From an alpha proteobacterium 3107 (GTDB lineage: Bacteria; Pseudomonadota; Alphaproteobacteria; Rhodobacterales; Rhodobacteraceae), in assembly GCA_001483205.1 (NCBI GenBank), contig JPPB01000125.1:1-20853 (forward strand): 20,853 bases of DNA, written 5' to 3'. The notes under the pieces were generated by a model. The model saw nothing but the letters and a program-made list of their open reading frames with translations. It was not told the DNA's origin and ran no database searches. This document shows, one piece after another, positions 1,316 to 17,684 of the stretch; positions within the stretch are counted from its first letter, which is position 1; every line of letters begins with the position of its first letter. Made by a program: the position numbers and the translations under genes.

Positions 1316-2010
1316 TGCGAGATTCCCTGCTGACCCTTTTGAAACAGGTCGATACCCCGACCGTCTGCAATGCGATTGAGGTCGCCGAAGGCAAACGCGG
1401 GTTCAACCGGTTCACCCGCGGCACTATGCTGCCCTCTGTCCCGGAAGCCACCGCCATTGTTGGCTATGCCCGCACCGCCAAAATCGCTGCCCTCGCCCCG
1501 CCAACCGAAGACCCTGCTGTCATCAAGACCCGCCGGATGGACTATTACCGCCACATGGCAGGCGGCCCCCGCCCGGCCCTCGCGGTGATCGAAGATGTCG
1601 ATTTCCCGGACTGCATCGGAGCGTATTGGGGCGAGATCAACACAACGGTTCATAAGGGCTTTGGCCTCTCAGGTGCGCTGACCAATGGCGTAATGCGCGA
1701 CCTTGGGGATTTGCCCGATGGCTTCCCGGTGATTGCCGGTTCCGTCGGGCCAAGCCATGGTTTCGTGCATCTGCGCGAGATCGGCACACCGGTCACGATC
1801 TTTGGCATGGCAGTCGTGGATGGCGATCTGATCCATGCCGACCGCCACGGTGCGCTGATCATTCCGCCTGAAGTCATCCCGGCGCTGGAAGCGGCCATCA
1901 CGAGATTGCTCGACACCGAGAAACTGGTGCTGGACGCCGCGCGCGCCGAAGGTTTCAACTTCGCCGCGTTTGAGGCGGCATGGGCTGCATTCGAGAAGGC
2001 AAGAACCTGA
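1315..2010 (+). CDS. RraA / HMG-CHA aldolase family protein
   Basis: The 231-residue product has the RraA fold signatures. GALTNGVMRDL includes Arg128 and Asp129, matching the catalytic Arg-Asp pair of 4-hydroxy-4-methyl-2-oxoglutarate aldolases. GDLIHADRHGALIIP lies near the C-terminus. It is longer than the RNase E inhibitor RraA (about 160 residues) and near the size of the aldolase/decarboxylase branch, so a divalent-metal-dependent aldolase or oxaloacetate decarboxylase role is more likely than RNase E regulation. The start at 1315 is chosen because GGAGG at 1306-1310 sits 4 nt upstream and the ATG overlaps the preceding stop (TAATG). A longer in-frame extension to 1162 would run into the upstream gene. 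Substrate unknown. Confidence 0.82.
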   Translation: MRDSLLTLLKQVDTPTVCNAIEVAEGKRGFNRFTRGTMLPSVPEATAIVGYARTAKIAALAPPTEDPAVIKTRRMDYYRHMAGGPRPALAVIEDVDFPDCIGAYWGEINTTVHKGFGLSGALTNGVMRDLGDLPDGFPVIAGSVGPSHGFVHLREIGTPVTIFGMAVVDGDLIHADRHGALIIPPEVIPALEAAITRLLDTEKLVLDAARAEGFNFAAFEAAWAAFEKART

Positions 2011-2055
2011 TGCGGCGGCTTGACGACAAGCTGCATCCGACATAGCCTGAAAACC

Positions 2056-2084
2056 ACTGACACGGCCATCAACTGCCGGTCAGT
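2056..2084 (+). terminator. imperfect hairpin downstream of the rraA-like gene
   Basis: The arms ACTGAC-A-CGGC and GCCG-GTCAGT form a 10-bp stem with one bulged A, 46 bp after the RraA-family stop and 115 bp before the PKS start. There is no clear T-tract after it, so it could be a weak or Rho-assisted terminator, or an operator in the PKS leader. Confidence 0.3.
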
Positions 2085-2185
2085 CTAGGTGCCGAAGTTG
2101 CCGGAGTTCGGTTGCCGCCGGTCAGGCAGGCCCCGGCTCTGCATTTCGGGAGTTTGCAGACAAGTGTGATTTATCTCGACGATGC

Positions 2186-2190
2186 GGAGG
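2186..2190 (+). promoter_or_regulatory. ribosome binding site fixing the PKS start
   Basis: A GGAGG lies 8 nt before the ATG at 2199. The frame stays open upstream to a TTG at 2112, but that codon has no comparable site and would add 29 residues without PKS character. The KS motif begins 17 residues after the ATG at 2199. Confidence 0.8.
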
Positions 2191-2198
2191 AATGCCGG

Positions 2199-5100
2199 AT
2201 GAGCACGGACCATCAAACCGACGGGGCGCGCCGACGCGCCGAACCCGTTGCAATCGTTGGCATGGCATGTCGTTTCCCTGGTGCACCCGACATTCGCTCT
2301 TTCTGGCACCTGCTTGAAACCGGCGGCAATGCAGTGACGGACGGTGTGCCGCGCTCAGGCCCGAACCGTCTTGAAGAGCTGTTCAGCGATCCCCGGAACC
2401 TGCAAGGCGCTTGCCGGTATTGCGCCTATGTCGATGACATAGACCTGTTCGATGCGAGGTTTTTCCGAATTTCACCGGTCGAGGCTGAGCTGCTTGACCC
2501 CCAGCAGCGGATGATGCTCGAAACAAGCTGGCAGGCGCTTGAGGATGCGGGCATGGACCCTGACCGGCTCAGGGAGAGCCTGACCGGCGTATATACCGGC
2601 ATCAGCAACGACGAATACCGAATGCTCGTTGTGGACTCGGAAAGACCCGGAGAGGCCGCGAAATCCTTGTATGCGCTAAGCGGCACCAACCTGAACGGCA
2701 CCAGCGGGCGGGTTTCTTTCGTGCTGGGTCTGATGGGGCCAGCAAAGGCGGTGGACGCCGCCTGTGCATCGTCGCTGCTGTCAGTTCACGACGCGGTTGC
2801 AGACCTTCAGCAGGGCAAGGCTGACCTGGCAATCGCCGGAGGTGTCCAGGCAATTCTGAACAGCCGAATCTTTGAACTGCGCGCCGATTCGATGATGTTG
2901 TCCCCGGACGGCCAGTGCAAGGCATTCGACTCGTCCGCAAACGGGTATGTGCGCGGCGAAGGCTGCGGCGTGGTGGTTCTGAAGCGCCTGCGTGATGCAG
3001 AAGCTGACGGCGACCGGATATGGGGCGTCATCCGGGGCGCTGCGGTAAACCACGGCGGGGCAAGCATCGGACTGACCGTGCCGCACGAACCGGCGCTGGA
3101 AAAGGTGATTGAAGCGGCGTTGTCGCAAGCCGGTATTCCGGCCTCGGATGTTGACTACCTCGAAGCACACGGCACCGGTACCGAGGTCGGCGACCCGATT
3201 GAAATCAACGCCGTTGCCAGGGTCTATGGCAAAGGTCGCAAAGCCGACCAGCCTCTGCTTGTCGGTTCCGTGAAAACCAACCTGGGACATCTGGAATCGG
3301 CTGCCGGGATCGCCGGTCTGATCAAGGCCGTGCTGGTGATGCAGCGCGGCGTGATCCCGAAGCACCTGCATTTCAGAAATCCCAACCCAAGCCTGAACTG
3401 GGACGAGCTGCCTTTGCAGGTGACCTCGACCATGATGGACCTGCCGGACCGGAATGGGCGACCGCGCATGGCCGGTGTGAACTCGTTCGGCATATCCGGG
3501 ACCAACGTTCACATACTGGTCGGGGAATATCCGGCCCCGGACACGGCCCCGTATCCGCCGGATCGGGTCGTGGGGTCTGGTCAGGCAGTGGTCATTCCGT
3601 CATCAGAGGCCGCCGTCACCTCAGCAGAGCACGGGAAAACCTGTCAAAGGCGCGGGATTCGGCTGCTGCCGCTGTCCGGCAAGTCAGAGCAGGCAGTGCG
3701 CGACCTCGCCGGGCGGTATCTGTCGTGGCTTGATGAACAGACGGGCGAATTTCCCGCCGAAGACGGGCTGCCGGAACAGTTGCTCGCGGATATGGCGTGG
3801 ACAGCCGGTGTCGGGCGGTGTCATTTCGATTGCCGCGCGGGTGTCCCCTTCAACAGCGTCGGCCAGTTGCGGGAACGGCTTGAAAAACTGGCAGAGGCAG
3901 GCCCCGGGGATGCGCCGCGCCCGGCGGCCAGGGTCGCGTTCGCCTATACGGGTCAGGGCAGCCAGTGGGCGGGTATGGGCCGCGATCTGTATGAGAGCGA
4001 GCCGGTGGCAAGAAGGGTTTTTGACCGCTGCGAAGAAGTCTTTGTCAAAGAGCGCGGCACATCGTTGCTGGATGTGATGTTTGGCCGCGCAGGCAAAGAA
4101 CAGCTTGGCGACACGGCCTGGGAGCAACCGGCGCTCTACGCGCTCGAAACGGCACTGACCGCGCAATGGTCAAGCGTCGGCGTCCGCCCCGATATGGTTC
4201 TTGGGCATAGCGTCGGAGAAATCGCGGCTGCACAGGCGGCGGGCGTGTTCAGCCTTGAGGACGGCATGAGGTTCGCCGCCAAGCGCGGTCTGCTGCTGTC
4301 GCAAACGGAAGAAGGTGCCATGGTCGCCGTCTTCGCGCCGCCGGATCAGGTGGCGTCTGCAATCAGGGCGGCAAACGCGGGGTCTGCTGGTGTCGGCGTG
4401 AACATATCTGCGGATAACGGTCTGCATCAGGTGGTCAGCGGCCCCGTCGCTTGTATCGAATCACTCGCAACCCGCCTTGAGGCAGAAGGCATCCGGGTGC
4501 GGCGGCTGAACACGACACGGGCGTTCCACAGCCCGCTGATTGACCCGGTTCTTGACGCGCTCCGGGCGTCTCTGGATCACGTCACTGTCAAACCGCCCGA
4601 ACTGACCGTGGTCAGCAATCTGACCGGCAAGGCGGTGAGCGATGGCCGGTTGCTGGACGGGGCCTATTGGTGCCGACATGCAAGAGAACCCGTTGCCTTT
4701 GCCAGCGGTGCCAGGGCGCTTGCGGCGCTCGGTGCCGACGTGATTCTTGAAATAGGCCCCGGTTCGGTGCTGGCCCCCATGGCGTCCTCGGCCTGGCCGG
4801 ATGAGGCACCCGCCCCTGTCGTGCTGTCGAGCCTTCAGGCTCCGGCAGCCGCCGCACCGGATAACGACGGCAGCTTTGCCGAAGCAGTCGCGGGGGCCTA
4901 TCAGTCAGGGCTGCCGATCCGTTTCGAGGGCCTTTTTGCCGGGGAAACACGTCGCCGTATCCCGGTGCCCGGATACCCCTTTCAGCGTGAGTCCTACTGG
5001 TTAAGTGCGCCAAAGCAGCGGCGTTCCATCGGGGAACACCCGTTGCTGGGTATGCAAAGAGAGTCAGCAAGCGGCGAAATCACTTATGAAACAGAGCTGT

Positions 5101-8100
5101 TCCCTACGGACCCGGAGTGGCTCAGCGACCATCGGGTGTTTGAACGGGTCATCGCGCCGGGGGCACTCTATGGCACGATGGCAGCGTCGGTATCCCTGAC
5201 CGGATCAGGCGGGCCGGTGATCGTCGAAGACATGCAGTTGCACAGCCCGCTGGTGTTCGCAGAGGAAGCCGGGAAGGATGAAGCCGCTGCGAATGGCCGA
5301 ACGGTGCAGCTTCTGGTCAGCAATTCCGATTCCGCCGACAAAGGCGCGGCCTGCTTGCAGATACTGAGCAAGGGATCGGCAGAGACGGAATGGACGCTTC
5401 ATGCCGAGTGCAGGGTCGCCGCCGACACAAACGCACCGGGGGCCGCCACCCGGCGTGCGGACCTTGAGCGCCTGAAAAGCGGGCTGGCCCCTGTGGATGC
5501 GTCTGTCCTGTATCAGGCCAGGGCAGGCACCGGTATTGATCTGGGTGGGAGCTTCCGCACGCTCGGCAACCTGTGGGCAAAGCAGGGCGAGGCCCTGGGC
5601 GAGGTATCCCTGCGGGAAGGCACCACTCTGACCCATACGGAAATTCATCCGCTGGTGCTGGACGGGTGCTTTCAGGTTGTGGCGGCGGCGCGGATTCAGG
5701 GTTCGGCAGAGGATGAGACCACCTATCTGCCGTTTGGCTGGGAACGGCTCTGGCTGACGGCGGGCGACCTGCCCGAGAAGGTGGTTTGTCACGTTCGTAT
5801 GCACGAGGCAACCGGGGAACCGAATGCAGAGGCGAACGGGCCTGCGGAGGTTCTGAGCGGGGAACTGCGCATTTATGATCCTGATGGCACCCTGCTTGGC
5901 GGGCTGGACGGATATACTGTCAAACGCGCAACCCGCGCCGCGCTGTTTTCGGCAATCGAAGGCGTGAACGACCTGTTATATGAGGTGGTCTGGCGCGAAC
6001 GCCCCCTGGTGCCAGCAATCATCGCCGCGGATTTCCTGCCGGAACCGGCTGCTGTCGCGCAGGATTTCATGCCGCTTGCCGACTACCTTGAGGAAGAGGG
6101 CGTTGCCCGTGCCCGTCGGTCTGCGCTTTTGTCAGACCTTGACCGGTGGTCGCGTGCCCGCGCAATCCGGACGCTGGAAAAACTCGGATGGCAGCGTAGT
6201 GCTGGCGAGGTGGTGGAGTCAGAGGAACTTCGCCGACAGCTTGGCGTCACCGATGAACACAAACGTGTCTTTCGCCGATTGCTGGAGATGCTGGCCCGGT
6301 CCGGTGTGTTGCAGGAGGATGACGGCCGTTTCATCGTGAAAGCAGGGCATGACGACCCCCTGCCACAGGACGTTCAGCCGGACCCGGAATCCTTCGCAGA
6401 CCATCTTGCCGAGCTTCACCCGCACGGCAAGACAGAGATCGGTTTGTTCCGGCGCTGCGGGGCGGCGTTGCCGGAGGTGCTTCGTGGCCGGATGGACCCG
6501 CTCACACTCTTGTTCAGTAGCGGCTATCCGACTCCGGGCGACCTGTATCTGGATGCACCGATCGCCCGCGCTGCCAACCGGCTGCTCAGGGACGCGGTTC
6601 GGGCACTCGTGGCCAGACTGCCCGCCGGTCGGCGTTTGAGGGTGATCGAAGTCGGTGCGGGGACGGGATCGGCGACAGCATCGGTTTTGCCGGAATTGCC
6701 CAAAGGCCGGTTCGACTATATGTATACCGACATTTCCGCAGGGTTCTTTGCAGAAGCAGAATCGCGCTTCGGAGATGGTGGAGGCTGCATCGAATACCGC
6801 CCGCTGAACATCGAAAATGATCCGGTGGCGCAGGGCTTCAACGCTCATGCCTATGATCTGATCATTGCATCGAACGTGCTTCATGCCACACGTTATCTTG
6901 ATGAGACGCTCGGTCATTGCCTGACGCTGCTCGCACCGTCGGGACAGATGGTTGCGCTTGAGAACCTGCGTGGTCAGGGCTGGATGGACCTGACGTTCGG
7001 GCAACTCGACGGCTGGTGGAGATTTGCCGACGATTACCGGCCACATCACGCCCTGGCAGGCCCCGACGTGTGGTGCCGTGCGCTTAAGGACACCGGGTTT
7101 GATGGGGCTGAAGTTCTGGGCCTTGATGCGTCCCGCCCCGACGATCTGCCGGATCGTGGCGTGATTGTGGCGAAAGGCCCGGACAAGGTGTCCGAAACGC
7201 CCGGAACGTGGGTTCTTGTCGCAGACCGGGGCGGCATGGCTGCAGAGCTTGCAAACGGTCTGGCCGCTCGGAATCAGACTGTCCTGATCGTGAGTGAAGG
7301 CCCGGAATACGGGCAGACATCCGGGACAACCGGTATCCTGACGGCACATGTTGATTTTAGGCGGCGCGAATCGTGGCAGGCGCTGCTTGAAGACCTGCCG
7401 GATGATGTGCCCCTCAGCGGGGTGGTGCATCTTCTGGCACTTGACGGCCATGGCGCAGAGGCATCCGCCTGTGACATCAGGCAGGACGTGCAACATGCGG
7501 GAGCGAGTGCTCTGGCGCTCGTTCAGGGGCTGACCGATTCCGACAATATCCCGGCCAAAGGCATCTGGTTTGTCACCCGTGGCGCTCAGGTGCTGGAGCG
7601 TGAGGCCGCCGGGGGGGCGCTGGCCGGGGCGGCGTTGTGGGGCTTCGGCAAGGCCGTGGCGCGCGAAGCGGCACATCTGATGCCGCGCATGATCGACCTG
7701 GACCCGACAGTCGCGGCACCCGCGACCGATCTGGTTGAAGAGCTTATGTATCCGGATTCGGAAAACCACATTGCCCTGCGAAGGGGAAACCGTCAGGTTG
7801 CCCGTCTGGTCCGTGCGGACAACGGCCCGGAGCGGCTGGAACTGCCGAAGGAAGGGGCGTGGGGTCTGATACCGGACCCGACCGGCATTTTTGAAAAGCC
7901 CTGCGTCAGCCCCCTGCCTGCATTGCCCCTCGAAGGTCGGGAAATCCGTGTCGCGGTCCAGGCTGCCGGGCTGAACTTCTGGGACGTGTTCCGTTCGCTG
8001 GGGTTCATCGAAGACGGAAACCTTGGGCGAGAGATGTGCGGCCATATAATTGCCGTGGGGGCGGACGTAACCCGCGTTTCCGTGGGCGACCATATTGTCG

Positions 8101-11100
8101 GCCTGGGTTTTGGTGCATTCGCGGCGGAAATGGTTACCCATGAGGAACTGGTCGCGCCTGCGCCGCGGGCAATCCCGGTATCGGACCTTGCTACCGTGCC
8201 CAGTGCCTTTGTCTCGGCAGCGCTGTCCTATGAATTGTCCGGGCTTGAGGCCGGTGACCGTGTGCTGATTCATGCCGGTGCCGGTGGCGTGGGGCTGGCG
8301 GCGATCCAGTTGGCACAGGTTGCAGGCGCAGAGGTCTTCGCGACCGCAAGTGCGCCGAAGCAGGCCTATCTGAAATCACTTGGCGTCAGGCATGTTTTTG
8401 ACAGCCGACAGACGAATTTTGGCAAGGAGATTCTCGACGCCACGGACGGCGCGGGCGTGACCGTGGTTCTGAACAGCCTGACAAGTGAGGGCTTCATCGA
8501 CGCCAGCCTGTCCTGCCTTGCGCAGGGTGGCCGGTTTGTGGAACTGGCGAGACGCGACATTCTCAGCACAGAGGAAATGGCGGCCCTGCGACCGGATGTC
8601 GGCTATGACATTCTGGAGCTTGATGTCCTGAAGAAAACCGATCCGGCCTGGGTGGGGCGGGTTCTCAGGGATGTGGTGGCGCGGCTGGCGGCTGGCGAAC
8701 TCAAGCCGCTGATCCATAGCCGCTGGCCGCTCGCCGAAGCCGGGGCTGCGCTGAGATTCATGCGCTCTGCGCGGCATGTCGGAAAGATCGTCGTCACGGC
8801 TCAGCCGTTGGCGTCGGGCCGGTTGCGGGGGGATCGCACCTATCTTGTCACCGGCGGCCTGGGCGGGATCGGTCTGACCGTCGCCGAGTGGCTTGCGGGC
8901 CTTGGTGCCGGGGCAATCGTGCTGAATGGCAGGCGCCCCCCTGACGAGGACGCGCAGGCGGCCATTCGCGCCCTCGAAGACCGGGGCGTGAACATATGTG
9001 TTGAGCTTGCGGACGTGTCGGACAATGCGGCGGTCGATGACATGCTGGCCCGGATGGACGAAGAGCTTCCGCCGCTCGCAGGTGTTATCCACAGCGTCGG
9101 CGTGCTGTCGGACGGTGCGCTGACAAACCAGAACTGGGATCGGTTTGAAACGGTGCTCTGGCCAAAGGTTCTGGGTGCCTGGCATCTGCACCGTGCGACG
9201 GCGGATCGCGATCTTGACCTCTTCATCCTGTTTTCCAGCCGTGTCGGCGTCATGGGCAACCCCGGTCAGGCAAACCACGCATCGGCGAATGCTTTTCTGG
9301 ATCAGCTTGCCGGTCACCGCCGGGCACTGGGTCTGCCCGGTCAGGCAATCGCCTGGGGCGCGTGGTCCGAGATCGGCGAAGCGGCAGAGCAGAAGGACCG
9401 GATCGAGCGGCAGAGGTCCGCCCTCGGCGGGCGCTGGTTTACGCCGCAACAGGGCATAAGGGCGCTTGACAGGCTGGTGCGTCAGGATGTCACCAATTCG
9501 GTTGTGATGGCTATGGACTGGTCAGTTTTCGGGGAAGCGGTAGAAGACCGCCCGGCTTTCCTTGAGGATCTTCTCTCGTCGGTCACCGAAGACGACACAG
9601 GGGCCGGTGTTTCTTCGGAGGATTTGCTCTCCGGACTTACCAACGCCAATGCGGGGGCGCGCGAGGAACTGCTGGTGACATTCCTGCAACAGGAATTGCA
9701 GGCGGTGCTTCGGCTCCCGTCGGCACCTGCGCCTTCCGTCGGGTTTTTTGACCTCGGAATGGATTCGCTGATGGCGGTGGAACTGCGCAACCGGCTCAAT
9801 CGCGCTTTTGCGGGCATGTGCAAGGTTTCAAACACAGTGGTGTTTGATTATCCCGAAATTCAGGCACTTGCCCGCCATATTGACGGGGAACTCGGCGAAA
9901 TCAGTGCCGAAGCAACACCGCCTAAGCAGCCGGTGCCTGAACCGAAACAACAGGCACAGCCAGCACCTGAGCCGCCGCCAGCACAGCCAACGGCGCAGAT
10001 TGCGCAGGTGCCGGAACGGCCGGGCAAAGCTCAGCAGGATCAGGAGCAGATTGCAATCGTCGGCATGGCGTGCCGCTTTCCCGGCGCGCCGGACCTGTCC
10101 GGCTATTGGCGTCAGCTCAGGGCGGGCGCTGAGGCGGTGACGGACGGGCGTTGCGATGAAGGGCCATGGAGCGGCATCATCGGAGACCCACGCGCGACGG
10201 AAGCCACCAATCGTCGCGGTGGTTTCATCGAGGGTCTCGACCGGTTTGATGCGAAATTCTTCGGCATACAACCGATTGAGGCACGAAAGATGGACCCGCG
10301 CCAGAGGATGCTGCTTGAAACAAGCTGGCACGCCCTCGAGGACGCGGGGATTGATCCCGGACCTCTCAGAGGCAGCCGCGCGGGTGTGTTCGCCGGTTTG
10401 GGCAGTAGCGAATACCGTGATCTGATCGCGGCGGCGGGCCAGGATGATAGTTATCTGGGAACCGCGGCGAGTGTGGCCATCGGACGGATTGCGTTTGCGC
10501 TCGGGTTCATGGGTCCGGCGGTGCCGCTCGATATGACCTGCGCGGCGTCGCTGGTGGCCGTGCATCAGGCGGCTACAAGCCTCCGGCAGCGCGAAGTCGA
10601 TCTGGCCCTGGCCGGGGGCGTTCATGCGATTCTTTCCCCGTCGGTCATGCGGTTCATGCGCGAATACGGAATGTTGTCGCGAACCGGACTGTGCAGAACC
10701 TTTGATGCCGACGCTGACGGCTTCGTGCGCGGCGAAGGCTGTGGCATGGTTGTCTTGAAGCGGCTTAGAGAGGCAGAGGCGGACGGTGACCGCATCTGGG
10801 GAATCGTTCAGGGGTCTGCGGTCAACCAGAATGGGGCGGCGGCGGCGCTGACGGTTCCGAACGGAACTGCCCAGGAACGCCTGTATGAGGAGGCGGTGGC
10901 GCAGGCAGGTATTGCGCCCCGTGATCTCGACTATCTTGAAGTGCATGGCACGGGGTCAGAGATGGGGGATCCGATTGAAGTGCGGGCGGTCGCCGCGGTC
11001 TATGGCCGCGAACGGGACGCAGAACGTCCGCTTTTGCTCGGGACCGCTAAGACCAATATCGGTCATCTTGAATCGGCGGCAGGGGTTGCGGGCCTGATCA

Positions 11101-12470
11101 AGGTTCTGCTTGCCATGAAGCATGGTGTGATCCCGAAGCATCTGCATTTCAGAACACCCAATCCGCATATCGAATGGGATGAGCTTCCGGTGCGGGTGAC
11201 GGCAGAGGAAACCGCCTGGCCGCCGCTGACAGGTCGTCCGCCTATCGCCGGTATCAGCGCATTCGGCATTTCGGGAACGAACGCCCATCTGCTTGTCGGG
11301 GGCTACAACGGACAGGTTGGCGAAACCGCGCAGAATGACGTGAAACGATCCCCGGCAGGGGCGGCGCTGCGTGTGCCGGTTCACCTGCCGGAATCCCCTG
11401 ATGGCACGGCCCCGGCGGGGGATGGCGGGATCAGGCCGCGCGGCCTGCGGTTGCTGCCGCTGTCGGGAAAATCCTCCGGCGCGCTCAGGGAACTGGCGGA
11501 TCGGTATCTCGGCTGGCTTGACGAACACGCGACGGACATGTCGTCTGACATCAGCGCGGGCATGTCGTTTCTTGCTGACATGTCATGGACGGCAGCGATC
11601 GGGCGCAGTCACTTCGAGTATCGGGCGGGTGTCGTCTTTGAGGATATTCCGACGCTGACCGAAGGGCTGACGCAAATCGGCACCCGCGGCGGCATCGCGA
11701 AATCGCAACGGAACGATAAGCCCGCGTTCATCTATTCCGGAAAGGCCGGTGACTGGGCAGGCCGGGGGCGGGTTTTGTATGAAACCGAGCCGGTGGCGCG
11801 GGCCGTCCTTGAGCGGTGCGACGCGATATTTCGCGAGGCGCACGGCAAATCGCTGCTTGATGCGATTTCAAAGCCCGCCCATGGTGCGGATGACCCCGTG
11901 CTGATGCAGGTCACTGCCTATGCGCTTCAATGTGCGGTTACGGCGCTGTGGTCCGGCCTCGGCCAGTCGCCCGGTGTGATTTGTGCCGGTGGGGTTGGTG
12001 CAATCGCGGCTGCACAGGTGGCGGGCGTGTTCGATCTTGAAAGCGGTGTGCTGCTTGCGGCAAGGCGGGGAGAGCTGGCCGGAGCAGATGGCGGCGATGT
12101 GGTGCCCGGAGATGTCGGGGCGTTCCTTGAAGGCGTTTCGTTCGCGTCGGTCCGGGTGCCGTTGCTGGCCGACATGTCAGGCCGGATGATCAGGCCGGGA
12201 GAGACACCGGACAGGTCAGGTTGGAGCGCCAGTGTATTCCGTCCCCCGGAATTGTCCGAAGCGCTGGCGGCATCCGCGAATGTGGGGGAAACAACCATTG
12301 TCGAGATTGATCCCGACAGCGAAAGCGGCCACATGCGATCCGTGGCGCAAATGTATGAGGCAGGATTCGCGCTCGATTTTACCGGCCTCTTTGCGGGCGA
12401 GACGCGGCGGCGCATCTCGGTTCCGGGCTATCCGTTCCAGCGCCGGAGCTTCTGGTTTGACCGGATATGA
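2199..12470 (+). CDS. type I polyketide synthase, KS-AT-DH-cMT-ER-KR-ACP-KS-AT0
   Basis: The 3423-residue megasynthase has these domains. KS1 spans about 17-440 (Cys189 in DAACASSL, His324, His364). AT1 spans about 581-870 (Ser671 in GHSVGE; AFHS at His777, which suggests malonyl-CoA). DH spans about 955-1240 (His978, Asp1155 in LDGCFQ). A C-methyltransferase has its SAM motif VIEVGAGTG at 1482-1490. The ER starts near 1920 (LNFWDVF, then AGAGGVG near 2026-2032). The KR starts near 2215 (TGGLGGIG; Ser2347, with His2360 where Tyr is usual). The ACP carries Ser2523 in GMDSL. A Pro/Gln-rich linker of about 45 residues leads to KS2 (Cys2781, His2916, His2956 all present). The tail is a shortened AT (3177-3423) in which the GHS serine motif has become AGG. 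No second ACP, thioesterase or reductase follows. The first module could make a fully reduced, alpha-methylated acyl chain, iteratively or once. Release must come from elsewhere. A phosphopantetheinyl transferase is not in the window. Confidence 0.95.
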   Translation: MSTDHQTDGARRRAEPVAIVGMACRFPGAPDIRSFWHLLETGGNAVTDGVPRSGPNRLEELFSDPRNLQGACRYCAYVDDIDLFDARFFRISPVEAELLDPQQRMMLETSWQALEDAGMDPDRLRESLTGVYTGISNDEYRMLVVDSERPGEAAKSLYALSGTNLNGTSGRVSFVLGLMGPAKAVDAACASSLLSVHDAVADLQQGKADLAIAGGVQAILNSRIFELRADSMMLSPDGQCKAFDSSANGYVRGEGCGVVVLKRLRDAEADGDRIWGVIRGAAVNHGGASIGLTVPHEPALEKVIEAALSQAGIPASDVDYLEAHGTGTEVGDPIEINAVARVYGKGRKADQPLLVGSVKTNLGHLESAAGIAGLIKAVLVMQRGVIPKHLHFRNPNPSLNWDELPLQVTSTMMDLPDRNGRPRMAGVNSFGISGTNVHILVGEYPAPDTAPYPPDRVVGSGQAVVIPSSEAAVTSAEHGKTCQRRGIRLLPLSGKSEQAVRDLAGRYLSWLDEQTGEFPAEDGLPEQLLADMAWTAGVGRCHFDCRAGVPFNSVGQLRERLEKLAEAGPGDAPRPAARVAFAYTGQGSQWAGMGRDLYESEPVARRVFDRCEEVFVKERGTSLLDVMFGRAGKEQLGDTAWEQPALYALETALTAQWSSVGVRPDMVLGHSVGEIAAAQAAGVFSLEDGMRFAAKRGLLLSQTEEGAMVAVFAPPDQVASAIRAANAGSAGVGVNISADNGLHQVVSGPVACIESLATRLEAEGIRVRRLNTTRAFHSPLIDPVLDALRASLDHVTVKPPELTVVSNLTGKAVSDGRLLDGAYWCRHAREPVAFASGARALAALGADVILEIGPGSVLAPMASSAWPDEAPAPVVLSSLQAPAAAAPDNDGSFAEAVAGAYQSGLPIRFEGLFAGETRRRIPVPGYPFQRESYWLSAPKQRRSIGEHPLLGMQRESASGEITYETELFPTDPEWLSDHRVFERVIAPGALYGTMAASVSLTGSGGPVIVEDMQLHSPLVFAEEAGKDEAAANGRTVQLLVSNSDSADKGAACLQILSKGSAETEWTLHAECRVAADTNAPGAATRRADLERLKSGLAPVDASVLYQARAGTGIDLGGSFRTLGNLWAKQGEALGEVSLREGTTLTHTEIHPLVLDGCFQVVAAARIQGSAEDETTYLPFGWERLWLTAGDLPEKVVCHVRMHEATGEPNAEANGPAEVLSGELRIYDPDGTLLGGLDGYTVKRATRAALFSAIEGVNDLLYEVVWRERPLVPAIIAADFLPEPAAVAQDFMPLADYLEEEGVARARRSALLSDLDRWSRARAIRTLEKLGWQRSAGEVVESEELRRQLGVTDEHKRVFRRLLEMLARSGVLQEDDGRFIVKAGHDDPLPQDVQPDPESFADHLAELHPHGKTEIGLFRRCGAALPEVLRGRMDPLTLLFSSGYPTPGDLYLDAPIARAANRLLRDAVRALVARLPAGRRLRVIEVGAGTGSATASVLPELPKGRFDYMYTDISAGFFAEAESRFGDGGGCIEYRPLNIENDPVAQGFNAHAYDLIIASNVLHATRYLDETLGHCLTLLAPSGQMVALENLRGQGWMDLTFGQLDGWWRFADDYRPHHALAGPDVWCRALKDTGFDGAEVLGLDASRPDDLPDRGVIVAKGPDKVSETPGTWVLVADRGGMAAELANGLAARNQTVLIVSEGPEYGQTSGTTGILTAHVDFRRRESWQALLEDLPDDVPLSGVVHLLALDGHGAEASACDIRQDVQHAGASALALVQGLTDSDNIPAKGIWFVTRGAQVLEREAAGGALAGAALWGFGKAVAREAAHLMPRMIDLDPTVAAPATDLVEELMYPDSENHIALRRGNRQVARLVRADNGPERLELPKEGAWGLIPDPTGIFEKPCVSPLPALPLEGREIRVAVQAAGLNFWDVFRSLGFIEDGNLGREMCGHIIAVGADVTRVSVGDHIVGLGFGAFAAEMVTHEELVAPAPRAIPVSDLATVPSAFVSAALSYELSGLEAGDRVLIHAGAGGVGLAAIQLAQVAGAEVFATASAPKQAYLKSLGVRHVFDSRQTNFGKEILDATDGAGVTVVLNSLTSEGFIDASLSCLAQGGRFVELARRDILSTEEMAALRPDVGYDILELDVLKKTDPAWVGRVLRDVVARLAAGELKPLIHSRWPLAEAGAALRFMRSARHVGKIVVTAQPLASGRLRGDRTYLVTGGLGGIGLTVAEWLAGLGAGAIVLNGRRPPDEDAQAAIRALEDRGVNICVELADVSDNAAVDDMLARMDEELPPLAGVIHSVGVLSDGALTNQNWDRFETVLWPKVLGAWHLHRATADRDLDLFILFSSRVGVMGNPGQANHASANAFLDQLAGHRRALGLPGQAIAWGAWSEIGEAAEQKDRIERQRSALGGRWFTPQQGIRALDRLVRQDVTNSVVMAMDWSVFGEAVEDRPAFLEDLLSSVTEDDTGAGVSSEDLLSGLTNANAGAREELLVTFLQQELQAVLRLPSAPAPSVGFFDLGMDSLMAVELRNRLNRAFAGMCKVSNTVVFDYPEIQALARHIDGELGEISAEATPPKQPVPEPKQQAQPAPEPPPAQPTAQIAQVPERPGKAQQDQEQIAIVGMACRFPGAPDLSGYWRQLRAGAEAVTDGRCDEGPWSGIIGDPRATEATNRRGGFIEGLDRFDAKFFGIQPIEARKMDPRQRMLLETSWHALEDAGIDPGPLRGSRAGVFAGLGSSEYRDLIAAAGQDDSYLGTAASVAIGRIAFALGFMGPAVPLDMTCAASLVAVHQAATSLRQREVDLALAGGVHAILSPSVMRFMREYGMLSRTGLCRTFDADADGFVRGEGCGMVVLKRLREAEADGDRIWGIVQGSAVNQNGAAAALTVPNGTAQERLYEEAVAQAGIAPRDLDYLEVHGTGSEMGDPIEVRAVAAVYGRERDAERPLLLGTAKTNIGHLESAAGVAGLIKVLLAMKHGVIPKHLHFRTPNPHIEWDELPVRVTAEETAWPPLTGRPPIAGISAFGISGTNAHLLVGGYNGQVGETAQNDVKRSPAGAALRVPVHLPESPDGTAPAGDGGIRPRGLRLLPLSGKSSGALRELADRYLGWLDEHATDMSSDISAGMSFLADMSWTAAIGRSHFEYRAGVVFEDIPTLTEGLTQIGTRGGIAKSQRNDKPAFIYSGKAGDWAGRGRVLYETEPVARAVLERCDAIFREAHGKSLLDAISKPAHGADDPVLMQVTAYALQCAVTALWSGLGQSPGVICAGGVGAIAAAQVAGVFDLESGVLLAARRGELAGADGGDVVPGDVGAFLEGVSFASVRVPLLADMSGRMIRPGETPDRSGWSASVFRPPELSEALAASANVGETTIVEIDPDSESGHMRSVAQMYEAGFALDFTGLFAGETRRRISVPGYPFQRRSFWFDRI

Positions 12471-12494: not shown

Positions 12495-13529
12495 CTACAG
12501 AATGCCCTGATCTGACAGAAATTTCCGCAGCATTGCCGCGCATTGTTCCGGCTGCTCTAACTGAAGCAAATGCGACGCATCAGGTATAAAATCATAATCG
12601 ACGGTGGAAACGTGACCTAGGTCAAACGTGGGCAGATACGTGTAGGGAAGCGTGGGGTCGGCCCCGATGACCTTTGTCGGGCAGGTCAGCGTCGTCAGGT
12701 CAAGCAGGGGCGAAAAGCTCCTGACATATTCTGCGATCTGGGCCTCGTATTCGCGCGGACAGCGAAGTTCATACGCTTCACCGTCGGCGCTTTGGCGAAG
12801 GGTTGAGCGCGCCATGAGCTCGCGCACCCCAGGCACAACACGGGCGAATCCGGGAAAGATCGCCAGGAGTTCGGCAAGTTGCTGCTCGGACCTGAAGCGC
12901 ACGGTGCGATTGCGGATCATCGCCGCCATTCGCTCTGCCGACCGGATAAATTCCTGCTCGCTTGCCGTGGGCTTGCACAGCGGCGGATCGAACAGAACCA
13001 GCGCGGAATAGGCATCACCGAAGGACAGAAGAGTGATCAGCGCCGAGAGCGAATGGAACACGCCGACCGTGGGCTTTTTACCATATTCCAGAACAACGGC
13101 AGAGAGAATGAGATCATGGTCGGAAATCAGCGTCGGAATATTATGATCCCGCAGGGCACCGACCTTGTTCCTGCCGTGGTTTCTGAGATCATAGACCATC
13201 AGGTCGAAATCGTCGGCCAGCATCGACCAGAACGGATAATAGGGATCAATGGCAAGACCGTTGCCATGGCTGAACACAAGCCGGGGACCGGACGGATTGC
13301 CGTGCTGACGCACTGTGGTGACGGTGTGCTCGTCCAGTTGAACATCGCATGTCGAAAGAGGTTGCGGTACCTCCCAAAGCACACCTTCCGGTGCGGACAG
13401 CAAATCGGTTTCCTGCCGATCAGGGTCTGTCCCCGGAGCGCGGTTCGCAATCATCTCATGCACACCTGACCGGGTGATACCGGGATGATGTAACGACATT
13501 TTCGCACGAGTCGCATGATCTCCTAGCAT
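12495..13529 (-). CDS. alpha/beta-fold hydrolase
   Basis: The alpha/beta hydrolase is about 344 residues long. Numbered from the ATG at 13529, it has the oxyanion motif HGNG at 88-91, DLRNHGRN after strand 4, a nucleophile elbow VFHSLSA with Ser160 (G-x-S-x-G replaced by the permitted small-residue form H-S-L-S), a candidate acid in GADPT (Asp291) and His320 in PDASHLLQ. The N-terminal ~75 residues before the fold have no recognised motif. The start is uncertain: a TTG at 13538 and ATGs at 13529, 13499 and 13454 are in frame, and none has a well-placed ribosome site. It converges on the PKS with only 24 bp between the two stops, and lies downstream of the freestanding ACP. A thioesterase-like role, releasing or editing the polyketide, is an inference from this context. 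Hydrolysis of an unrelated ester is possible. Confidence 0.85.
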   Translation of the reverse strand: MLGDHATRAKMSLHHPGITRSGVHEMIANRAPGTDPDRQETDLLSAPEGVLWEVPQPLSTCDVQLDEHTVTTVRQHGNPSGPRLVFSHGNGLAIDPYYPFWSMLADDFDLMVYDLRNHGRNKVGALRDHNIPTLISDHDLILSAVVLEYGKKPTVGVFHSLSALITLLSFGDAYSALVLFDPPLCKPTASEQEFIRSAERMAAMIRNRTVRFRSEQQLAELLAIFPGFARVVPGVRELMARSTLRQSADGEAYELRCPREYEAQIAEYVRSFSPLLDLTTLTCPTKVIGADPTLPYTYLPTFDLGHVSTVDYDFIPDASHLLQLEQPEQCAAMLRKFLSDQGIL

Positions 13530-13620
13530 TGTCTGCAATCAACGCCGGAACCCTTGGGCCATGAATAGACACACAAAAACGACCCCGAGCCACCTGATGG
13601 CCGGACCTGGACATCCGGTG

Positions 13621-14073: not shown

Positions 14074-15216
14074 TCAGCGTTCGACGAGCGAGGCCCGTTC
14101 GGGATCATACCGGACGCTCTTTATGCTGCCGTCTTTGATCTTCGCGACAGCGGCATCAATGGCGTGGAGCGGAACCAGAAACCACTCACGTGGCACAACC
14201 GGGTTTCCGAAGCGGTCCATCACCTCAATGTCCAGACGCGCGGACGCAAAGATACGATGAATCAGGTTTTCGAGTTTTGCCCTGTTGATGTTGTAGAGCT
14301 TATACGTGGCAACAATTTCGACGCCAGCCATCAGGAATGTCGGCTGAAGATGCGCCCCGGCGATACGCCTTTCCACGCTCATGTCGGTCACACCGATCTT
14401 ATGCACCAGCTCGCGGTTCCCGGCGACCAGCGGAAGATCAGATTTGCTGCGCAGCACATAGATGGTGCCGCTGGCCGCATCGCCCCCGGCTGTATTGGCA
14501 GCAAAGAGAGGACCGGCTGTCAGCTCGGTGATCCGGCGACCGGCTTTGTCCTTGTTCAGGGCGCGCTGAAGCGAGCGCATGAGCAGGTTGCTCTCGGTGC
14601 CATTGTCAAAGATCACCCGAAGCCGGGCATCGGTGCGACCCTGATCGGTCAGCGTGACCTCACCCTTCCCGGCGACATAGGCTTTCTGTCCGCCGACGAT
14701 GAAGAAGCGGCCTTGCTCGATCTCCGCCTTCATCTCGAATGGTCTGGTTTCGCGAAGACCGGCATTGAGTTCGCTCTGAACCTGCTCAAAGAGTGGCTTG
14801 AACTTTGCGAAATCCTCGCAGCGATCACGCGAAGCAATCTGCTCGGCAGCGTGCTTCTCGGCGGTCGAGCGCACATGGCGCAGTTCTGTGATCGGCGATG
14901 TTTCAGCTTCAATCCCAAGCTCTGCAAGCAGCGCATCATCATCAAGCTCATCCGCCGTGTTTCCCGGCACCTCAGCGGATGAGCCGGACAATTCACGAAT
15001 GCGGTCGAGCCGCACGGCATAGAGCCTCTCGAAAATATCCCGTTCCCCGCCATGACGGGGCGGATGGCCATGCTCCCCGACAAAGCGCTGAATCTCTTCA
15101 AAGCCCGCGATGAAACGCTCTTCTTCAGGGGTTCGGTTGGCGGCCTTTTTCGCCTCAACCTCAATACCAAGCTCAGCGAGAAGCGCGTCATCCTCTGCGG
15201 TGAATTTCTCAGCCAT
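14074..15216 (-). CDS. GIY-YIG nuclease family protein (T5orf172/MUG113-like)
   Basis: The 380-residue protein has a C-terminal divergent GIY-YIG domain at about 250-350: TIYVLRS (251-257), HKIGVTDMSVERRI (272-285), a KLENLIHRIF helix with candidate metal-binding Glu316, and REWFLVP at 343-349. The N-terminal half is helical and charged. It contains the segment DDALLAELGIE twice, at 9-19 and 93-103, flanking a block with GEHGHPPRHGGERDIFERLYAVRLDR. The domain is known as a metal-dependent endonuclease fold in restriction and homing enzymes. The ATG at 15216 overlaps the helicase stop by 8 nt (ATGGCTGA). A GTG at 15225 is the alternative start. It is the last gene of the four-gene operon and probably supplies DNA cleavage for the helicase, an inference from position. 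Confidence 0.82.
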   Translation of the reverse strand: MAEKFTAEDDALLAELGIEVEAKKAANRTPEEERFIAGFEEIQRFVGEHGHPPRHGGERDIFERLYAVRLDRIRELSGSSAEVPGNTADELDDDALLAELGIEAETSPITELRHVRSTAEKHAAEQIASRDRCEDFAKFKPLFEQVQSELNAGLRETRPFEMKAEIEQGRFFIVGGQKAYVAGKGEVTLTDQGRTDARLRVIFDNGTESNLLMRSLQRALNKDKAGRRITELTAGPLFAANTAGGDAASGTIYVLRSKSDLPLVAGNRELVHKIGVTDMSVERRIAGAHLQPTFLMAGVEIVATYKLYNINRAKLENLIHRIFASARLDIEVMDRFGNPVVPREWFLVPLHAIDAAVAKIKDGSIKSVRYDPERASLVER

Positions 15217-17431
15217 CCGCTGCACCCTGCTGCATACGGGTAAGGAAAGCGACGCCCTCGGCCATGTATTTCTCCCAGGGATCGGGGGAATTTACGGAAG
15301 GCACCCGCCCCCGTTCCTGCTTGAATGCCAGAGCGCGCTCCGCCAGAAAGCGGGCCTCTTCGTAGGTAAGCGGCATTTTCTTTGCCGAAATCACCGCAGC
15401 AATCTGTTTCAGGCTTTCCTCGCTCATTGCCTTTGCGAGAATGGCGTAGGCCTCGCTGAAAGGGTTGATCCGGTCGATCAGGTCAATGTCAAGCTCGCGC
15501 ACATCCATTGCAAATCTGCGCACCCCGTCGATCAGGGCGGTGTTTGTGCCTGCCTCACCCTCATCCGACGCCGAAAGAACGGTTTCCCTGGCTTTCTGGG
15601 TCAGGGTCAGGGCGGCGATGGCGTGCTGACGAACCGCCTCCTGATCGTTGTCATCAAGCCTGGGGTATTTGTCCCTGATGATCTTCCCCATGCGAACCTG
15701 CGTCAACTCTTCAGGCACAAGCTCCTCATCGAACAACCCCCGCTCGACTGCCGTCTTGTCCTGCACAAAGGCGGTGATGACCTCATTCAGGTCTTGCTGA
15801 CAGATGCGCCTGGCCTCTTTGCTCTTCGGCTCAACCAGCCCCTTGATCTCGATCTGAAACTGGCCGGTTTTGTCATTGAAACCGACATTCTCCCTTGCCG
15901 GGTCATAGCCGCCCTCGCCGTAATCGAACCCTTCAACCGGTCCGCCCTGCGCGCTTTTGGGGGTAAAATTGAAACGCGGGGCAAGCACCTGCTCCATCAA
16001 CAGACTGGCGGCAATGGCTTTCAGCGTGTCGTTCACCGCCTCGGTGACGGCCTCCTCAGACGCATCCGGCTCGGCAATCAGGTTGGTAAAGCGCGCGCGG
16101 GTCTTGCCCTCGGCATCACGGGTCGCCCGGCCAATGATCTGCACAATCTCGGTCAGGCTCGACCGATACCCCACCGTGAGCGCGTGCTCGCACCAGATCC
16201 AGTCAAAGCCTTCCTTGGCCATGCCAAGGGCGATGATAATGTCCACATGATCGCGGTTGTTCTTCTGGGCCGGGTCTCTGAGGGCCGCCAAAACCCTGTT
16301 CCGCTTGGCGGGGTCTGTATCATCAACCAGATCGGCGATTTTCAGAACACGCCCCCCGGCGGTCATCACACACTGAAAGCCGGTCTTCGGGTCTGTTTCC
16401 TGCCATTCCCCCAGGGCGTCAATGATATGCTCCACTTCCCGGTGCTTATCCCTGGTGCTTTCGCGGGAATTGACGTTCGGGATATGCAGGATCGTCTTCT
16501 TGCCGGGGTCAAGCACATCCAGAATGCTGTCGGCATAGGAACCCCCATAAAAGAAATACCCGATGTCAAGCGCCTTCAGATACTTATAGCCGTTCAACTG
16601 CTCGTAATAAGTATAGGTGACGGTCTCGAACTTCTGCTCATCCTCTGCGCTCAGAACCGGCTCCGCGTCGCCCCGGAAATAACTGCCGGTCATCGCCACC
16701 ACATGCACTCTGTTCCGGTCGATCAGCTCCCCCAGATGCCCGCCCAGCCTGTTATCCGGGTTGGCCGAAACATGGTGAAACTCATCCACCGCGATCAGCC
16801 GGTCATCGAATGCCCCCGCCCCGAACCGGTCCATGGCAAAGCGAAAGGTCGCATGGGTGCAGACCAGCACCCGATCATCGCTGTCAAGGAACGCCCCGAC
16901 CGCGGCAACCTTGCCGTCCTCTGTCCCCGGCGCATTGCACAGGTTCCGTTTCGGCGTGACCGTCCAATCCGCCCAGAACCCGAACCGGCTGAGCGGTTGA
17001 TCGTCAAAGCTCGCCCCGATGGACCGTTCGGGGACGGCAATAATCGCCTGCCTCAGCCCCTGATTTTCCAGCTTATCCAATGCGATGAACATCAGCGCGC
17101 GGGACTTGCCCGATGCGGGCGGCGATTTGATCAGCAGATATTGCTCGCCCCGCCGCTCATAGGCCCGTTCCTGCATGGGCCGCATCCCAAGCTCGTTCGA
17201 CGTGGCAGAGCGGCCATTCCGGGCATAGCTGACAGAGACAGAGGGAATATCACTGAAACCTCTGGGCTGGCCAGCGATGTTTGCCCCACGACCTGTTGCT
17301 GCCTGACCGCCGGGCAGGTGGAGTCTGGCGTTCGCGAAAAATGCCTCTGCCATCTCTGGAATGTCAGAGGTATCAATGTCTTCGTCTGTCATTGCGGCTA
17401 TTTCATCCAGCCGCCTTTTTGATATACTCAT
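15209..17431 (-). CDS. DEAD/DEAH-box (ResIII-like) helicase with N-terminal BrnA antitoxin segment
   Basis: The product is a 740-residue superfamily 2 ATPase: Q-motif-like GMRPMQERAYE at 82-92, Walker A PPASGKS at 104-110, DEFH at 216-219, TGS at 248-250 and motif VI QIIGRATRD at 431-439, then a long helical C-terminus. Residues 1-43 look like a separate protein. The sequence up to DEDIDTSDIPEM and FFANARLHLP matches the start of BrnA antitoxins, which normally continue into a ribbon-helix-helix DNA-binding half. Here the frame runs instead through a Gly-rich linker (about 43-80) into the helicase. The start at 17431 is fixed by AAGGAGG at 17439-17445, 7 nt upstream. It overlaps the end of brnT by 29 bp, as brnA usually does. 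The helicase assignment is firm. The antitoxin reading rests on about 40 residues plus the adjacent BrnT. Confidence 0.9.
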   Translation of the reverse strand: MSISKRRLDEIAAMTDEDIDTSDIPEMAEAFFANARLHLPGGQAATGRGANIAGQPRGFSDIPSVSVSYARNGRSATSNELGMRPMQERAYERRGEQYLLIKSPPASGKSRALMFIALDKLENQGLRQAIIAVPERSIGASFDDQPLSRFGFWADWTVTPKRNLCNAPGTEDGKVAAVGAFLDSDDRVLVCTHATFRFAMDRFGAGAFDDRLIAVDEFHHVSANPDNRLGGHLGELIDRNRVHVVAMTGSYFRGDAEPVLSAEDEQKFETVTYTYYEQLNGYKYLKALDIGYFFYGGSYADSILDVLDPGKKTILHIPNVNSRESTRDKHREVEHIIDALGEWQETDPKTGFQCVMTAGGRVLKIADLVDDTDPAKRNRVLAALRDPAQKNNRDHVDIIIALGMAKEGFDWIWCEHALTVGYRSSLTEIVQIIGRATRDAEGKTRARFTNLIAEPDASEEAVTEAVNDTLKAIAASLLMEQVLAPRFNFTPKSAQGGPVEGFDYGEGGYDPARENVGFNDKTGQFQIEIKGLVEPKSKEARRICQQDLNEVITAFVQDKTAVERGLFDEELVPEELTQVRMGKIIRDKYPRLDDNDQEAVRQHAIAALTLTQKARETVLSASDEGEAGTNTALIDGVRRFAMDVRELDIDLIDRINPFSEAYAILAKAMSEESLKQIAAVISAKKMPLTYEEARFLAERALAFKQERGRVPSVNSPDPWEKYMAEGVAFLTRMQQGAADG

Positions 17432-17684
17432 CGAAAAGCCTCCTTTCCTTCCTGTTGGCCTTTCGGGCATTGATGATCCGTGTGACACCCTGTCGTTTGG
17501 TATGGACAACACACAGAACGACTTCATTTTCGAGGCGACCAAGGCTGATTTCACGCTGCTCGCCATAGTCGCGTAGATCAGTGCCGGTCAGCACCGGTCC
17601 GTCAAAGATATGCCTTGCTTCTTCAAAGCGGATACGATGCTTTTCCATATTCCTGGCATTCTTTGCAGGATCCCATTCAAACAT
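17403..17684 (-). CDS. brnT: BrnT-family toxin (RelE-like ribonuclease fold)
   Basis: The 93-residue protein has the BrnT signatures in order: FEWDPAKNARNMEKH at the N-terminus, FEEARHIFDGP, GEQREISLGRL, VVLCVVHT and TRIINARKANRKERR near the end. BrnT is the toxin of the type II brnTA system, a RelE-like fold that inhibits translation and is neutralised by BrnA. Its ATG follows the methyltransferase stop directly (TGAATG), with GGTGGGG 8 nt upstream. Its last 29 bp overlap the next gene, whose N-terminus resembles BrnA. There is no free-standing brnA in the window, which is unusual. The full length and intact motifs suggest it is not decaying. Confidence 0.88.
   Translation of the reverse strand: MFEWDPAKNARNMEKHRIRFEEARHIFDGPVLTGTDLRDYGEQREISLGRLENEVVLCVVHTKRQGVTRIINARKANRKERRLFDEYIKKAAG
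17439..17445 (-). promoter_or_regulatory. ribosome binding site inside brnT setting the helicase start
   Basis: AAGGAGG lies within the 3' end of brnT and 7 nt upstream of the ATG at 17431. It is the best ribosome site in this operon. The longer in-frame extension upstream is brnT sequence in another frame, so translation of the helicase should begin with the BrnA-like segment. Confidence 0.8.

Follow-up and report, generated by a model that had tools for sequence, protein, structure and literature searches.

The toxin BrnT of Brucella abortus and its cognate antitoxin BrnA form a type II toxin-antitoxin pair, and the residues D6, E7, K9, R41, and E78 are important for the ribonuclease (RNase) activity of the toxin (PMC5086665; this and the other articles are cited here from excerpts of their texts). 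A total of 33 BrnT-BrnA fusions with ribbon-helix-helix or helix-turn-helix domains were described in PMC11980606, where the word helicase is absent from the main text. BrnT-like genes were reported upstream of CoCoNuTs (PMC11090510), and brnAT accompanies a Type I system in defense islands (PMC12707154). Among restriction loci, the DnmA(YeeA)-YeeB-YeeC genes of Bacillus subtilis form a putative Type I-like system (PMC9973331, PMC7261158), with two putative toxin-antitoxin systems beside dnmA (PMC9973331); mutants of dnmA and yeeB in Vibrio crassostreae were more sensitive to some phages in a study cited in the same article. EcoprrI keeps the nuclease PrrC silent, and neutralization of EcoprrI by the Stp protein of phage T4 triggers PrrC (PMC2610378), and PrrC and PARIS were termed restriction-modification (RM) guardian systems in a 2025 review (PMC12707154). 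Here, a locus is described in a 20,853-nucleotide (nt) stretch of an alphaproteobacterial genome (alpha proteobacterium 3107, contig JPPB01000125.1), hereafter the window, where a YeeB-like superfamily 2 (SF2) helicase begins with a segment of BrnA and lies beside an intact brnT gene.

The fusion gene runs from the ATG at 17431 to the stop at 15209 on the minus strand and encodes 740 amino acids (aa) beginning with MSISKRRLDEIAAMTDEDIDTSDIPEMAEAFFANARLHLPGG. No stop codon occurs between the BrnA-type start and the SF2 ATPase. Despite the frame staying open further upstream, the start is well supported by the Shine-Dalgarno-like sequence in front of it (Table 1). Residues 1-42 were identical at 29 of 42 positions (69%) to the free-standing, complete BrnA of locus L135, a protein of 85 aa that directly follows its own brnT and, judged from its sequence, carries the ribbon-helix-helix half. 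A canonical BrnA profile of 90 positions, built solely from 12 free-standing BrnA proteins, matched the window protein over profile positions 3-45 (36.7 bits, E-value 1.9e-10 for 1000 sequences). Chance similarity to BrnA was ruled out with this canonical-only profile, as 980 shuffled N-termini reached a maximum of 6.3 bits. The profile also matched all 49 fused proteins tested, with an independent E-value of 1.8e-7 or better, and in 48 of them the match ended at position 43-55, so that the similarity stops about where the ribbon-helix-helix of BrnA begins. In the remaining protein, P0029, the match continued to position 76, into residues that belong to the linker and the helicase core. A Pfam scan of the fused protein (E up to 1) detected neither a BrnA nor a ribbon-helix-helix family. 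The autoregulatory ribbon-helix-helix half of BrnA is thus absent, with a variable linker and a helicase in its place. The initial annotation had read the helicase as starting like a BrnA protein, overlapping the end of an intact brnT, running on in the same frame to an SF2 ATPase, and lacking the DNA-binding half, and each of these points was confirmed.

A solved complex in the PDB contains the same part of BrnA. The 94-aa toxin 7vd7_A matched the BrnT profile with an E-value of 5.1e-29, and the profile also matched the BrnT chain 3u97_A (E 3.8e-10). The second chain of 7vd7, which has 44 residues and is named antitoxin, aligned to positions 4-45 of the canonical BrnA profile (E 3.1e-8) and hence corresponds to the BrnA part kept by the helicase. 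The BrnT of the window scored 85.1 bits against PF04365, for which the cut-off is 34.5, and its AlphaFold model had a mean predicted local distance difference test (pLDDT) score of 92.9. Since the helicase starts with the toxin-holding half of BrnA and adjoins the matching toxin, it is probably the safety catch of BrnT. In this reading, for which we see a fair preponderance of evidence, the fused restriction helicase would be the antitoxin of the neighboring BrnT and hold the RNase hostage until the helicase is lost, degraded, or blocked.

The fusion is not confined to one genome. Protein searches with three N-terminal queries gave 5 matches (residues 1-70 of the window protein), 42 (residues 1-62 of P0006), and 8 (residues 1-62 of the L052 protein), in total 48 distinct fused proteins; these include a near-copy of the window's own protein (P0005), two short members of 449 and 492 aa, and several mutual near-copies. 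Together with the seven fused loci for which DNA was available, they rule out a single-genome artefact. Among 51 aligned fused proteins, the mean frequency of the top residue was 0.85 in columns 1-40, 0.43 with insertions and deletions in columns 41-61, and 0.91 in columns 62-140; it was about 0.9 over columns 62-480 and 0.80 over columns 481-740. When the segment was used as the query in draws from the class, fused frames were found in G000 and G186 among 385 genomes, and in G000, G642, and G654 among 390 genomes. A draw of 398 genomes from the phylum (E up to 1e-8) contained no fusion besides the window's own. The segment was in none of ten helicase relatives on viral contigs, two of which contain just part of the helicase. 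Judged by these sequences, the BrnA-helicase fusion is an established and conserved architecture across many lineages.

The fusion was coupled to brnT. A search with the whole helicase identified 80 genome loci of 72-82% identity, of which 77 were without the N-terminal segment and three were fused (Propylenella L012, Bradyrhizobium L018, and Celeribacter L052); brnT was present in exactly those three. With the ten viral-contig loci added, 87 of 90 loci were unfused, and none of them had a match to the BrnT profile at E up to 1, though four (L046, L129, L072, and L014) have little or no upstream sequence. The sole match to the segment profile in these 87 loci was in L034 (E 0.93) on the opposite strand, and the sole match to the whole-BrnA profile was in L064 (E 0.071), where it covered the ribbon-helix-helix half and lay downstream of the helicase. 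An even draw of 385 genomes from the class (E up to 1e-60) gave a similar picture: 17 genomes encoded 18 helicase copies, and brnT accompanied both fused copies but none of the 16 unfused copies within about 1.5 kb. When homologues were tabulated in this way, the fused helicases came with brnT and the unfused ones without brnT or brnA in the DNA examined, and no relative with a complete brnA and a separate helicase was found among the 87 unfused loci. Two of the outcomes that the initial annotation had named as refuting its reading, such relatives and confinement of the fusion to a single genome, were thus not observed.

At each of the seven fused loci with DNA, brnT stands between the methyltransferase gene and the fusion, immediately upstream of the latter. 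It has an open frame and overlaps the fusion gene by 29 nt in every case. The canonical brnT-brnA pairs overlap by 29 nt in L135 and, owing to a BrnT with two more residues, by 35 nt in L134 and L136. Measured from the farthest usable brnT start, there is no gap to the methyltransferase stop in the window (0 nt), L012, L052, and L131, where the two genes abut or overlap; L132 has a gap of 25 nt and L018 one of 158 nt. In L130, two extra open frames (308 and 353 aa from stop to stop, positions 1632-3653) were found between the methyltransferase and brnT. With gaps this small in five of the seven loci, a promoter of its own could hardly fit in front of brnT, and this would account for the repressor half of BrnA having become dispensable.

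The position between methyltransferase and helicase is also occupied in relatives that are not fused. In L066, from Acidobacteriota, it holds at 5398-5983 a gene for a YafQ toxin (PF15738, E 6.8e-27) and a partner frame that we take, by resemblance, to be a DinJ-like antitoxin; it is thus a second toxin-antitoxin type at the same position as brnT. Varied accessory genes were found there in others of the 80 genome loci (e.g., L061, L030, L039, L035, and L010). Besides YafQ, ten representatives included a Schlafen/AlbA_2 ATPase, RhuM, HEPN, and an NgoFVII-like phospholipase D match (below threshold), as well as five proteins of 147-392 aa without a Pfam match.

The same anatomy would result if the helicase were the antitoxin of BrnT and the pay-off were the keeping of the restriction operon, with loss or breakage of the operon poisoning the cell and no sensing of phage. 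Restriction systems are described as selfish or addiction modules in excerpts of a review (PMC12707154), and the YafQ gene and its partner in L066 are as expected of an acquired maintenance module. However, an unfused brnTA would suffice for such addiction, yet the linker and helicase replace the ribbon-helix-helix half in all seven fused loci and in the aligned proteins, and a helicase of 740 aa is not an obviously labile antitoxin. Plasmids speak against it as well, as none of the 60 listed records (of 264 with a helicase match) aligned to residues 1-37; used alone, the segment matched four plasmid records. Addiction is the main rival of the hostage reading, and we regard it as unlikely.

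Selection appeared to act on both the segment and the toxin. Over the 21 pairs of the seven loci, the mean ratio of nonsynonymous to synonymous differences (pN/pS) was 0.38 in segment codons 11-40, which are outside the brnT overlap, 0.34 in BrnT, 0.71 in the linker, and 0.17 in the helicase core, values that are rough because synonymous sites are near saturation. The segment and BrnT are under amino-acid constraint, and the linker much less so. Pairwise distances of the segment and BrnT were correlated with a Mantel r of 0.90 (exact p 0.0012, from the full set of 5040 permutations), compared with r 0.59 (p 0.032) for segment and core and r 0.75 (p 0.0087) for BrnT and core. These data bear on the alternative offered in the initial annotation, in which a dying brnA was joined to the helicase through a chance deletion; brnT would then be a leftover. 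Orphan remnants of BrnA N-termini do exist (L133, L086, and L087). Against such a relic, the segment is kept in 48 proteins, brnT is open in 7/7 fused loci, the constraint on the segment and BrnT exceeds that on the linker, and each of the four helicase motifs is intact in nearly all of the 47 long members, the window included (Walker A in 44, DEFHH in 46, TGSYFRG in 46, and QxxGRxxR in 45). A relic is therefore highly improbable, and a dying brnA was rejected on the three-zone conservation, the intact brnT frames, and the constraint.

The remnants themselves were varied. Locus L133 in genome G717 contains a fragment of the BrnA-type segment, with 24 residues matched, that has no helicase continuation and no BrnT match in 8.5 kb; it is probably a decayed remnant. 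Orphan N-terminal segments of 56 aa, without the ribbon-helix-helix half, were found in L086 (1501-1671) and L087 (1450-1620), with no BrnT match in about 3.1 kb, and in L086 a short fragment that by eye is DinJ-like precedes the segment.

On a helicase-core tree of 129 rows (52 fused), the fused label changed 11 times, and at least four of these changes were forced by well-supported branches. A quick tree of 89 rows (27 fused), made after 40 near-copies and long branches were removed by hand, with its unfused rows picked by closeness to the window, showed seven changes, at least two of them forced. A single fused clade was rejected on this tree by the approximately unbiased test (p-AU 2e-55), so the trait was gained, exchanged, or lost more than once. 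Repeated fusion, a single gain with many losses, or the transfer of a brnT-segment cassette between helicases may each account for the tree alike.

If the helicase is the antitoxin, the following sequence of events can be proposed. About 42 N-terminal residues of the helicase would be the toxin-binding half of BrnA, and the DNA-binding half would have been dropped since the restriction operon drives brnT, whose own repressor is no longer needed. Newly made BrnT, encoded just before and overlapping the helicase, would be captured by it, and the restriction complex would carry a silenced RNase while its helicase stays intact. Loss or degradation of the helicase, or its blocking by an anti-restriction factor of a phage, would free BrnT to cut RNA and arrest growth. 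The proposal in the initial annotation that the helicase acts as antitoxin is upheld in its structural half, given that a conserved BrnA N-terminus is paired with brnT and matches the 7vd7 antitoxin chain in sequence; on this reading the fused helicase would neutralize BrnT, and phage action may release it. The segment could instead dock BrnT as an RNase effector on a translocating restriction complex, where it would cut transcripts of foreign DNA and not be silenced. Such tethering would fit the varying length and sequence of the linker and its low pLDDT in a poor model. However, what would be docked here is the very segment of the antitoxin, and because BrnA is the cognate antitoxin of the B. 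abortus BrnT (PMC5086665), a toxin bound in this way is expected to be inactive. We therefore consider recruitment improbable.

Several observations weigh against the helicase being a BrnT antitoxin. The 48 fused proteins are known as protein sequences, and adjacency to brnT was read from the DNA of the seven loci; the conservation of columns 1-40 was partly selected for, as the proteins were found by N-terminal similarity, and the contrast between the conserved segment and the linker is less affected by this bias. The 7vd7 complex is known here from its sequence listing alone, its 44-residue chain may be a truncated construct, and the direct match of the fused-segment profile to 7vd7_B was weak (E 0.066). 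A structure model of the fused helicase was poor, with a mean pLDDT of 58 (about 24-26 in the linker) and a predicted template modeling score of 0.39, too low for a fold search. Physical linkage alone could yield the co-divergence of BrnT and the segment. The window's own genome holds, on contig C293 (L106), a second and divergent complete brnT-brnA pair in which the antitoxin has its C-terminal half, and this BrnA might act in trans on the BrnT of the window. Finally, for the B. subtilis relatives DnmA-YeeB-YeeC, no phage defense was seen (PMC9973331).

The toxin itself provides a further point of this kind. When the RNase-linked residues of the B. abortus BrnT were mapped onto the fused BrnTs through the 3u97 alignment, the positions matching D6, K9, R41, and E78 were kept in 7/7. 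The E7 position was acidic in one of seven (L012; P, A, S, or T in the other six), compared with seven of ten free-standing BrnTs aligned, and it is alanine in the 7vd7 toxin. With this acid lost in six of the seven fused BrnTs, the toxin may be weak. The loss, at 6/7 versus 3/10 in free-standing BrnTs, would also suit a model in which BrnT acts on the helicase and its binding regulates how the restriction subunit assembles or works, the RNase having a small role. This model sits poorly with the four RNase-linked positions kept throughout and with a segment that is the BrnA antitoxin segment, and we give it very little credence.

More broadly, it is conceivable, though we hold it with some reserve, that restriction helicases of the YeeB type were repeatedly converted to antitoxins. 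A phage that degrades, sequesters, or jams the helicase would then fire the RNase, the guard and the guarded subunit would be one polypeptide, and the repressor half would have been discarded as the operon supplies expression. If the hostage reading is true, restriction and growth arrest would be linked physically and directly, with one domain of the restriction motor, in place of a separate antitoxin, holding the RNase. How restriction systems sense their own disabling could then be tested with two genes, given that the helicase, its linker, and the toxin-binding segment are cleanly separable. It would also offer a possible reason for the occurrence of BrnT beside restriction systems, and a search pattern: antitoxin halves that have no DNA-binding domain and have gained a defense enzyme. 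No description of a BrnA-helicase fusion was found, by titles and abstract lines, among the papers listed in searches of the open-access literature, a scope that mostly excludes subscription papers and preprints, and the excerpts of PMC8616854, PMC10098735, and PMC10865869 contained nothing on it.

The operon itself consists of four minus-strand genes arranged head to tail, namely the methyltransferase, brnT, the SF2 helicase, and the T5orf172/MUG113 protein (Table 1). The last of these is presumably related to GIY-YIG proteins. The methyltransferase matched the MmeI structure 5hr4 with an E-value of 3.2e-133. As to the nuclease motif of MmeI, whose lack is a mark of DnmA-type loci, this match starts at MmeI residue 109, but the Pfam MmeI_N domain spans residues 5-164. 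Its best PADLOC family was the Type IIG restriction enzyme-methyltransferase (E 9.2e-281). The fused helicase matched the Pfam families DEAD (E 1.6e-4), Helicase_C (4.3e-4), and ResIII (1.1e-3), all three below the curated score cut-offs, and a plasmid protein 68.7% identical to it (H36) carries the annotation YeeB. By gene order, families, and this annotation, the operon is of the DnmA-YeeB-YeeC type, with brnT between methyltransferase and helicase. Elsewhere in the window, a polyketide synthase of 3452 aa (2112-12470) has two modules, comprising two ketoacyl synthase and two acyltransferase domains, a ketoreductase, a dehydratase, a methyltransferase, and an acyl carrier protein, and an alpha/beta hydrolase gene (12495-13538) lies near it.

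Table 1. Features of the brnT-helicase operon in the window, with the basis of each assignment.
Feature	Position	Strand	Basis
MmeI/DnmA-like DNA methyltransferase, 922 aa	17685..20453	-	domains MmeI_Mtase, MmeI_TRD, MmeI_N, MmeI_hel, MmeI_C
Shine-Dalgarno-like AAAGGAGG, 7 nt before ATG 17431, inside brnT	17439..17446	-	read from sequence
brnT, intact gene for RelE-fold ribonuclease toxin	17403..17684	-	PF04365, E 4.3e-24
Overlap of brnT and fusion gene, 29 nt	17403..17431	-	same length in 7/7 fused loci
BrnA-type N-terminal segment of fusion protein, residues 1-43	17303..17431	-	BrnA profile and identity to L135 BrnA
Variable linker, fusion residues 44-61	17249..17302	-	low conservation in aligned fused proteins
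YeeB-like SF2 helicase core, residues 62-740 and stop	15209..17248	-	Pfam sub-threshold matches, relatives
YeeC-like protein, 383 aa, T5orf172/MUG113 domain	14074..15225	-	Pfam MUG113 E 2.9e-14, T5orf172 E 8.7e-11

Compared with the BrnT-BrnA system of B. abortus (PF04365), the locus has the toxin gene first, an antitoxin frame overlapping its end, and the N-terminal segment of BrnA; unlike that system, it is without the C-terminal ribbon-helix-helix half and has a restriction helicase of about 680 residues instead. With DnmA-YeeB-YeeC (the YeeA operon, MmeI family), it shares the order of an MmeI-like methyltransferase, an SF2 helicase, and a T5orf172 protein, but it differs in having brnT between methyltransferase and helicase and an antitoxin N-terminus, both of which the 87 unfused relatives are without in the DNA examined. 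The brnTA genes beside Type I restriction genes in PMC12707154 are an accompanying toxin-antitoxin system, and fusion is unmentioned in that passage. As in PrrC-EcoprrI and PARIS, a growth-arresting system is linked to a restriction operon, and the silencing of a nuclease by a restriction enzyme, which is known for PrrC, would apply to the window as well. However, in PrrC it is an anticodon nuclease of the ABC-ATPase type that EcoprrI holds (PMC2610378), whereas the window has a RelE-fold toxin and a putative antitoxin domain in the helicase; its toxin is not of the PrrC family, PF04365 being the sole Pfam family matched at E up to 1. Relative to the RM guardians and to toxin-antitoxin pairs, what appears to be new is an antitoxin half built into the restriction helicase.

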